From NCBI GenBank assembly GCA_913055615.1, contig CAJXKK010000031.1, forward strand, positions 1-32,826: a stretch of DNA of 32,826 bases, given 5' to 3'. Source of the DNA: an uncultured Ectothiorhodospiraceae bacterium (lineage in GTDB: Bacteria > Pseudomonadota > Gammaproteobacteria > XJ16 > Halofilaceae). The translations under genes were made by a program, and so were the position numbers. Positions 22,986 to 32,826 of this stretch are shown here, piece by piece. A model generated the notes under the pieces. That model did no database searches. It saw nothing but the letters and a program-made list of their open reading frames with translations, and was not told the origin of the DNA. Position 1 is the first letter of the stretch. Every line of letters begins with the position of its first letter.

Positions 22986-23171
22986 ATGCTGATCCTTACG
23001 CGCCGCGTAGGCGAGACCCTTATGGTCGGAGACGAAGTCTCCGTAACCGTGTTGGGGGTCAAGGGAAATCAGGTCCGACTCGGAGTGAATGCCCCGAAAG
23101 ATGTCGCCGTGCATCGTGAAGAGATCTACGAGCGCATCAAGAACGAGCAGGATCCCGTAGACGAGAGCTGA
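22986..23171 (+). CDS. csrA: Carbon storage regulator CsrA/RsmA
   Basis: CsrA is a small dimeric RNA-binding protein that binds GGA motifs in mRNA leaders and controls carbon storage, motility and biofilm genes. ATG at 22986 gives [16 protein letters not shown], the universal N-terminus, and 61 residues; AGGAG (22972-22976) lies 9 bp upstream. The RNA-binding residues (Leu4, Arg6, Arg7 region and [10 protein letters not shown], with Arg44) are present. The frame is open upstream to 22932 but that segment is leader. Its place between lysC and tRNA-Ser(GCU) matches the conserved alaS-csrA-serV locus. Confidence 0.96.
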
Positions 23172-23254: not shown

Positions 23255-23347
23255 GGAGAGATGGCCGAGTGGTCGAAGGCGCTCCCCTGCTAAGGGAGTA
23301 AGGGGTTGATAGCCCCTTCGAGGGTTCGAATCCCTCTCTCTCCGCCA
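23255..23347 (+). tRNA. serV: tRNA-Ser(GCU)
   Basis: A 93-nt tRNA with encoded CCA (23345-23347). The acceptor stem pairs GGAGAGA with TCTCTCC. The anticodon loop CTGCTAA gives anticodon GCT (23289-23291), reading AGC and AGU. A long variable arm (AAGGGGTTGATAGCCCCTT) and the T arm GAGGGTTCGAATCCCTC confirm the class II serine form. In E. coli serV also lies just after csrA. The tRNA 3' end is copied twice downstream, once inverted and once direct. Confidence 0.97.
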
Positions 23348-23350
23348 TAC

Positions 23351-23385
23351 AAAAAAAAGCCCCGCAATCGCGGGGCTTTTTTTTT
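23351..23385 (+). terminator. Bidirectional intrinsic terminator of tRNA-Ser
   Basis: GCCCCGC-AATC-GCGGGGC (23359-23376) is flanked by A8 on the left and T9 on the right, so it can end transcription from either side. Confidence 0.93.
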
Positions 23386-23415
23386 GTATGGCGTAGAGAG
23401 GTGGGCCGAACCCTC
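23386..23415 (-). repeat. Inverted copy of the tRNA-Ser 3' end
   Basis: GTATGGCG.AGAGAG...CGAACCCTC matches the reverse complement of the T arm, acceptor and first downstream bases of tRNA-Ser (about 23 of 30 positions). The terminator therefore lies at the centre of a long imperfect palindrome with tRNA tails on both sides. Confidence 0.75.
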
Positions 23416-23424
23416 CCGGTTCGA

Positions 23425-23574
23425 CTGATTCGCCGGGAGCGAATCAGCGCGAGCGAAGCGACTCCAAAGGACGCGGCCCATGGACGGGCCGCGCACCAAT
23501 CGGCAGGAAAGCCGATTGGCGACGCCGACCAGCGGGAGGCGCCCCGAAGGGGTGGTGGCCATGGATGGCCGCCA
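23425..23574 (+). repeat. tRNA-tail element, two hairpin units (Ser locus)
   Basis: Unit 1 has hairpin H1 CTGATTCGC-CGGGA-GCGAATCAG (23425-23447), the spacer CGCGAGCGAAGCGA.. and hairpin H2 CGCGGCCC-ATGGAC-GGGCCGCG (23472-23493). Unit 2 repeats the plan: H1 CCAATCGGC-AGGAAA-GCCGATTGG (23496-23519), spacer, and H2 TGGTGGCC-ATGGAT-GGCCGCCA (23553-23574, one G-T pair). Spacer and H2 of unit 1 are almost the same as those behind tRNA-Arg (32630-32700). The open reading frames across this stretch are low-complexity translations of the repeats and I do not accept them as genes. Confidence 0.8.
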
Positions 23575-23577
23575 TCT

Positions 23578-23595
23578 ATCCCTCTCTCTCCACCA
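23578..23595 (+). repeat. Direct copy of the tRNA-Ser 3' end
   Basis: ATCCCTCTCTCTCCACCA matches 17 of 18 bases of the tRNA-Ser 3' end at 23330-23347, including CCA. With the tRNA it brackets the 230 bp of terminator, inverted tail and hairpin units, like a pair of attachment sites or target duplications. Confidence 0.8.
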
Positions 23596-23638: not shown

Positions 23639-23750
23639 GTAGCCCGGATGAAGGCGAAGCCGAAATCCGGGAAGGTTCAGATACACCAGGGCGCCCCGTT
23701 GTATCGGCGTCCCCGGTTCCCCGGATTCCGCGTCACTCCATCCGGGCTAC
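23639..23750 (+). repeat. Palindromic GTAGCCCGGATG element
   Basis: GTAGCCCGGATG (23639-23650) is mirrored by CATCCGGGCTAC (23739-23750), and ATCCGGGAA and CCCCGGATT lie just inside the arms. GTAGCCCGGATGAAG-type strings are widely dispersed in proteobacterial genomes. The 112-bp unit has no gene. From 23751 to 23952 I see only the leader of the amidohydrolase gene. Confidence 0.7.
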
Positions 23751-32414: not shown

Positions 32415-32536
32415 CCGTAGGTTGGGTTGAGCGAAGCGATACCCAACGGTACGAGGGTGATTTTCGACAGCCATCGGCCGAGTCATTGGTGGAATGGCTC
32501 GACGTGTCGGGTTTCCTTCGTCAACCCAACCTACGG
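32415..32536 (+). repeat. Palindromic GTAGGTTGGGTTGA element
   Basis: CCGTAGGTTGGGTTGA (32415-32430) is perfectly mirrored by TCAACCCAACCTACGG (32521-32536), giving a 122-bp unit with 16-bp ends. GTAGGTTGGGTTGAGCGAAG-type sequences are dispersed in many proteobacteria. It has no gene and sits in the upstream region of the minus-strand LysR gene. Confidence 0.8.
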
Positions 32537-32573: not shown

Positions 32574-32608
32574 ATGGAAAAGGCCTGCATTGAGCCGGCC
32601 TTTTCCAT
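32574..32608 (-). repeat. Diverged second copy of the tRNA-Arg terminator
   Basis: ATGGAAAAGGCCTGCATTGA then GCCGGCCTTTTCCAT keeps the loop region GCATTGAGCCGGC of the terminator at 32739-32777 in a longer stem. It lies directly behind the direct tail copy, as the true terminator lies behind the true tRNA. Confidence 0.75.
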
Positions 32609-32609
32609 G

Positions 32610-32626
32610 TGGCGCGCCCGGGAGGA
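32610..32626 (-). repeat. Direct copy of the tRNA-Arg 3' end
   Basis: TGGCGCGCCCGGGAGGA is identical to 32778-32794, the complement of the tRNA-Arg acceptor end including CCA. It has the same orientation as the tRNA and is 168 bp away. Confidence 0.9.
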
Positions 32627-32629
32627 CTG

Positions 32630-32700
32630 CGCGGCCCCTCCATGGGCCGCGTCCCTTCGGGACTCGCTTCGCTCGCGCCGATCGGCTTCCTGCCGATCGG
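32630..32700 (-). repeat. tRNA-tail element, one hairpin unit (Arg locus)
   Basis: Read on the minus strand: H1 CCGATCGGC-AGGAA-GCCGATCGG (32700-32678), spacer CGCGAGCGAAGCGAGTCC.., H2 CGCGGCCC-ATGGAG-GGGCCGCG (32651-32630). The plan, stem lengths and loop forms equal those behind tRNA-Ser at 23425-23493, while the H1 stem sequence differs with pairing kept. Confidence 0.8.
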
Positions 32701-32705
32701 TCGAA

Positions 32706-32740
32706 CGGGGGTTCGAATCGAATCTCGCGGACTCGCCAGA
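32706..32740 (+). repeat. Inverted copy of the tRNA-Arg 3' end
   Basis: CGGGGGTTCGAATC (32706-32719) is identical to the T arm of the minus-strand tRNA-Arg read in tRNA sense, and CGCCAGACATAAAAAAG follows as in the tRNA tail. The acceptor part between has diverged. It faces the real tRNA across the shared terminator. Confidence 0.85.
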
Positions 32741-32777
32741 CATAAAAAAGCCGGCATTGAGCCGGCTTTTTTATGTC
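32739..32777 (-). terminator. Bidirectional terminator of tRNA-Arg
   Basis: GCCGGC-ATTGA-GCCGGC with A6/T6 flanks, inside the longer palindrome GACATAAAAAAGCCGGC. It follows the minus-strand tRNA-Arg 3' end directly and works in both directions. Confidence 0.92.
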
Positions 32778-32826
32778 TGGCGCGCCCGGGAGGATTCGAA
32801 CCCCCGACCTCATGGTTCGTAGCCAT
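32778..32826 (-). tRNA. tRNA-Arg(ACG), 3' part
   Basis: The 3' portion of a minus-strand tRNA that runs off the right edge. In tRNA sense the anticodon arm is ATGG-CTACGAA-CCAT with anticodon ACG (complement of 32818-32820), followed by the T arm GGGGGTTCGAATCCTCC, the acceptor strand and encoded CCA. It closely matches E. coli argV from the anticodon loop onward. In E. coli such tRNA-Arg(ACG) genes lie directly behind csrA-serV. Confidence 0.93.

Follow-up and report, generated by a model that had tools for sequence, protein, structure and literature searches.

What is the string of small hairpins that stands behind a tRNA-Ser gene, enclosed by copies of that tRNA's own 3' end, and how did it come to be there? 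The window, meaning the whole 32,826-nucleotide stretch of DNA that was analysed, contains this locus and a second of the same kind behind tRNA-Arg (Table 1). The sequence statements of a preliminary description, which gave the order behind tRNA-Ser as terminator, inverted tail copy, two hairpin units and direct tail copy with 17 of 18 bases identical, all held when coordinates, repeats and shuffles were checked. No match to the direct tail copy occurred in 100 shuffles of the window, the inverted tail has 28-nt arms (including the terminator) that are 89% complementary, and the region downstream of tRNA-Ser folds far better than shuffled sequence (z = -5.6). The duplicated stretch of the tRNA-Ser 3' arm is longer than the direct tail copy itself, and the units divide it, ..GGTTCGA / units / ATCCCTCTCTCTCCACCA, exactly inside the T-loop. 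The tRNA-Arg locus has the same layout, as first described, but with a single unit and the tail of tRNA-Arg. REP-like palindromes also occur in the window at 23639-23750 and at about 32420-32533, starting with GTAGCCCGGATG and GTAGGTTGGGTTGAC; palindromes of the first kind also flank a Y1-transposase gene at another locus of this genome, L061.

Table 1. Features of the tRNA-Ser and tRNA-Arg loci in the window.
Feature	Position	Strand	Basis
csrA, 61 aa, upstream neighbour of tRNA-Ser	22986-23171	+	Pfam PF02599, E 1.9e-25
tRNA-Ser(GCT)	23255-23347	+	ARAGORN; Rfam tRNA, 61 bits
Intrinsic terminator GCCCCGC-AATC-GCGGGGC with T9	23348-23386	+	Inverted repeat I2
Imperfect inverted copy of tRNA-Ser 3' arm	23386-23412	+	Inverted repeat I1; fuller form in sister species L218
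GGTTCGA, T-arm 5' half of the tail copy	23418-23424	+	Sequence; identical junction in tRNA-linked copies
Unit A: H1 9 bp, loop CGGGA; GCGAGCGAAGCGA spacer; TCC-AAA-GGA; H2 8 bp, hexaloop ATGGAC	23425-23495	+	Covariance model R1, 96.4 bits
Unit B: H1 9 bp, loop AGGAAA; CCCCGAAGGGG hairpin; H2 8 bp, hexaloop ATGGAT	23496-23577	+	Covariance model R2, 104.9 bits
Direct tRNA-Ser tail copy ATCCCTCTCTCTCCACCA	23578-23595	+	17/18 identical
Second, diverged tRNA-Arg terminator copy	32576-32609	-	Sequence
Direct tRNA-Arg tail copy GTCCTCCCGGGCGCGCCA	32610-32627	-	Sequence
Unit A behind tRNA-Arg	32628-32700	-	Model R1, 96 bits
Inverted imperfect tRNA-Arg tail copy, last bases GTTCGA	32701-32745	-	Sequence
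Terminator behind tRNA-Arg	32746-32776	-	Sequence
tRNA-Arg 3' part, truncated by the window end	32781-32826	-	Rfam tRNA

Direct tail copies on either side of the units invite comparison with attL and attR, the attachment sites of a lost element whose integrase targeted tRNA genes. The 230 bp between the two tRNA-Ser tail copies, however, contain non-coding hairpins only and no integrase gene, an absence that the preliminary description had recorded; the duplication takes in the 5' part of the T-arm as well, and the units lie inside the T-loop. The identical type of unit at sites away from tRNA genes, described below, largely contradicts an origin as attachment sites, which we consider very improbable.

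Fold of the unit and its junctions

The unit measures 64-82 bp; in its own genome, type A copies are 64-73 nt long and type B copies 79-82 nt. Both types have a 9-bp stem, H1, whose loop contains GGA, together with a small CCC(C)GAAGGG hairpin (CCCGAAGGG) and an 8-bp stem, H2, with an ANGGAY loop. The fold covaries strongly: in an alignment of 100 distinct copies, taken from many genomes, pairing reaches 94.7% of cells, with 421 double-sided changes against 112 in shuffles, figures that are somewhat inflated by fitting of the alignment to the structure. Controls with slid partners gave 33-46% pairing and 36-87 double-sided changes, and an earlier set drawn mostly from copies of the same genus gave the same picture. 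H1 stems are plainly different palindromes from copy to copy.

Covariance models R1 and R2 together place such units at about 33 positions in the 3.0 Mb genome, bearing out the proposal that they form a family of tiny elements. Among the 46 tRNA matches in the genome, nine tRNA genes have a unit (Ser-GCT, Ser-GGA twice, Ser-TGA, Ser-CGA, Glu, Gln, Arg-CCG and the Arg at the window end), each linked unit standing in the tail of its own tRNA at a junction that reads TTCGA/ATCC, or once GTCC. A further unit interrupts the D-loop of a tRNA-Ser (L008), again at a ..CGA/unit/AT.. junction, some 15 (L025-L045) lie at ACACGA/ATG inside a dispersed AACCACGAATGAACACGA / ATGAACACGAATGG repeat, and one lies in a REP-like repeat (L042) at a junction nearly of the ..CGA/unit/AT.. 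form. The dispersed repeat also has a common downstream stretch, GGAGCTTCGCTGA.

In 83 distinct junctions, whose flanks played no part in finding the copies, position -2 is G in 63, position -1 is A in 78 and position +1 is A in 63. Since only about a third of these junctions are tRNA-linked, and more than half of the copies in the genome itself lie away from tRNA tails, the target is GA^A rather than the tRNA end that the preliminary description had proposed; judged by its sequence, the T-loop TTCGA^ATCC is one such site. By our own estimate, rather than by calculation, tRNA loops are far over-represented as sites relative to their share of the genome. The sites range over T-loops, D-loops, anticodon loops, other repeats and protein genes, where the unit lies in frame. 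In one region (L243:2278-17818, genome G138), 12 copies lie within long reading frames; in 11 of the 12 the length is a multiple of 3 and the reading frame runs on through the copy, the frames being mechanical ORFs with a Pfam domain in only one of those scanned. The peptides so encoded include SGANLDSRQAGPEGAASRDG. The same region contains a PglZ-domain gene and resembles a defence island. In another genome the intact gene is preceded by three 217-bp tandem repeats, each a broken tRNA-Ser(CGA) whose anticodon loop holds the unit (L072:1501-2010).

These sites also bear on a second origin suggested at the outset, in which template switching at the tRNA locus built the whole structure from the tRNA itself. 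Template switching may explain the inverted tail copy, which stands beside the terminator hairpin and is more complete in a sister species (L218) than in the window. It cannot yield the inner hairpins, which are not derived from tRNA and are common to copies in other repeats, in ERIC sequences and in rrn spacers, so that for the units themselves this origin is contradicted. Even the inverted acceptor copy is weak outside the genus (above control in 30 of 47 cases among the matches listed, with means of 5.9 against 5.1), and the inverted tail was dropped as a general feature. We regard template switching as an improbable source of the whole.

Distribution and previously described relatives

The element is scattered among many Proteobacteria. 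Model R1 found the unit in 16 of 56 genomes of relatives, and model R3 in 54 of the 143 genomes of an evenly drawn gammaproteobacterial sample. A sample of the phylum gave 30 positive genomes out of 120, of which 23 fall outside the Gammaproteobacteria. The count reaches 41 copies, many of them near-identical, in a single genome (G152). Four units stand head to tail, with a 74-bp period, in a member of a different class of the phylum (L292:79-373). A DNA pattern for the T-loop site matched at least 120 stretches. Among the matches listed, H1 is paired at no fewer than seven of its nine positions in 111 of 131, although a few of those with seven or eight H1 pairs, from actinobacteria and an archaeon, resemble chance matches. 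In other species too the tail is duplicated: among the matches listed, the 16 bases that follow the unit recur upstream exactly in 36 of 81 distinct T-loop units, and at 13 or more of the 16 bases in 47. Searches with one unit consensus gave no match in plasmid records, and in phage records matched only two from Salmonella.

The preliminary description had not recognised the units as a described element. They are nevertheless of the same kind as RtT RNA, the sequences that interrupt ERIC and the spacer that separates rrn terminators T1 and T2, though a much wider variant. RtT of E. coli tyrT (rttR, RF00391) stands behind a tRNA, reads ..GGTTCGA / hairpins with CCCGAAGGG / AATCC..CCA, and closes, like the window copy, with a repeat of that tRNA's 3' end, CCA included. 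T-loop copies that the T-loop pattern picked out in Pantoea (L092, L106) and Nitrococcus (L131) pass the RF00391 cut-off. The window copy does not reach the gathering score and is absent from the RF00391 results at E up to 10, and is therefore called RtT-like rather than RtT.

Cromie et al. and Sharp, both in 1997, reportedly described insertions of about 70 bp inside ERIC sequences. Two copies inside ERIC, one from Salmonella and one from an E. coli plasmid, are placed directly after ..GTGAGCGA or ..GTGAGTGA and have the fold of the window units, and the window element agrees with the ERIC interruptions in its size of about 70 bp, its fold and its junction rule; their host is another repeat, whereas the window copy occupies a tRNA tail. 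The E. coli rrn T1-T2 spacer has the same fold again, with the unit (L213:1503-1574, L216) set in an incomplete 5S rRNA tail copy, AGTAGGA / unit / AACTGCCAGGCATC, instead of a tRNA tail; a copy is present in 3914 of 5426 E. coli genomes, at 1-9 places in each. Model R1, trained only on copies from the genome of the window, finds this spacer at E 8e-6 and the two ERIC copies at 3e-5 and 1.5e-3. Cromie et al. 1997 and Sharp 1997 are cited on ERIC interruptions in PMC3696847.

Two further likenesses are by description or type rather than by compared sequence. Enterobacteria are reported to carry rtT-like elements before gatY, rbfA and cvpA, which resemble rtT, lie in BIMEs and were read as attenuators (PMC2965389). 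The palindromic elements of Rickettsia, a different clade, are likewise small hairpin elements lying in frame in protein genes.

Proposed movement, candidate mobilising enzymes and possible RNA function

The covariance-model search and species comparison proposed in the preliminary description found units behind other tRNAs and, at the csrA/tRNA-Ser locus, numbers that differ among three species of the genus: units A and B in the window, B alone in L218 and none in L219. The preliminary description had named a lack of such variation as grounds for refutation. An exact pair of empty and filled sites with identical flanks was not obtained. Two, one and no units at one locus imply that the element moves or moved recently. 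We read each unit as one copy of a small, non-autonomous element that is mobile, is the same in kind as the enterobacterial RtT and ERIC-interruption sequences and survives in spare tRNA tails, and put the probability of this reading at about 0.7. The element would insert at GA^A, its usual site in tRNA genes being the T-loop (TTCGA^ATCC). An insertion there would kill the tRNA, and the element would persist only in a spare duplicated tail or a spare tRNA copy, which would explain why every tRNA-linked unit is housed in a duplicate, partial or whole, of the tRNA next to it and has that tRNA's tail. The duplication of the tail would precede or accompany the insertion. In the window, unit B may have entered the spare tRNA-Ser tail first and unit A then been placed beside it by the same rule, or the reverse. 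Movement would depend on an enzyme acting in trans on the hairpins, perhaps in single-stranded DNA.

Against the mobile-element reading stands the failure to find a mobilising enzyme. A partner of the Y1 transposase type was sought at the five PF01797 loci of the genome, none of which is flanked by such hairpins, L061 having REP-like GTAG repeats instead. Identity with REP/RAYT or with non-autonomous IS200/IS605 (Y1/HUH) elements was rejected, there being at these five loci no linked Y1 transposase with the unit's hairpins at its ends. In G152, which belongs to another class, copies of a larger repeat that includes the unit stand in inverted orientation on either side of an IS110-family transposase gene at three loci (L263, L268, L274); an IS110-type partner is not claimed, as the larger repeat, and not the unit, seems to go with the IS.

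The near-perfect pairing of the stems across wide divergence, here attributed to a mobile element, could also mean selection on RNA. The unit might be kept for its transcript, an RtT-like trailer with a CCA 3' end that would be released from the tRNA transcript and whose GGA hairpins would bind and titrate CsrA at two sites per unit, in the manner of CsrB/RsmZ. Of 86 distinct copies, 76 present A(N)GGA in H2 on at least four pairs, with C-G as the closing pair in 70, and the H1 loop also carries GGA; to judge from these motifs, the unit has the several GGA motifs in hairpin loops that mark CsrA antagonists of the CsrB/RsmZ type, with the caution that sampling by covariance model favours similar loops. 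A weak similarity to RsmW (32 bits, below the cut-off of 52) points the same way, as do the annotated E. coli rttR, which stops exactly at the CCA of the tail copy, and Northern blots in Actinobacillus that showed RtT RNAs adjoining tRNAs (PMC4986893). A strong terminator, however, separates tRNA-Ser from the units in the window, whereas none is visible in the sequence between tRNA-Tyr and RtT at E. coli tyrT. G-T pairs are hardly commoner in the stems than A-C mismatches (20:14 and 7:5), and a one-stranded RNA is therefore not clearly under selection. E. coli RtT shares the layout but lacks the GGA loops of the window units, copies lie in protein genes, and the unit is absent from a sister species. 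H2 looks like a GGA hairpin of the CsrA/CsrB type and, because of the GGA loops, an RNA function through CsrA is possible, a case weakened by the terminator and the missing wobble preference; retention of the unit for its RNA strikes us as rather unlikely.

A broader proposal is offered tentatively. RtT, the ERIC interruptions, the rrn T1-T2 spacer and the insertions in tRNA loops and, in frame, in protein genes may all belong to one phylum-wide family of mobile hairpins of about 70 bp. Its members would enter GA^A sites through a mechanism not yet described, and their transcripts would be dispersed CsrA-binding hairpins. A literature search, most subscription papers lying outside its reach, found no tRNA-loop insertions or CsrA sponges of this kind.

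The mobile-element reading would unite, as a single mobile family sharing a defined junction, sequences known separately for decades, among them the rrnB T1-T2 stretch that common expression vectors carry. Loci with no, one and two units allow direct testing of movement and of any effect on tRNA expression.
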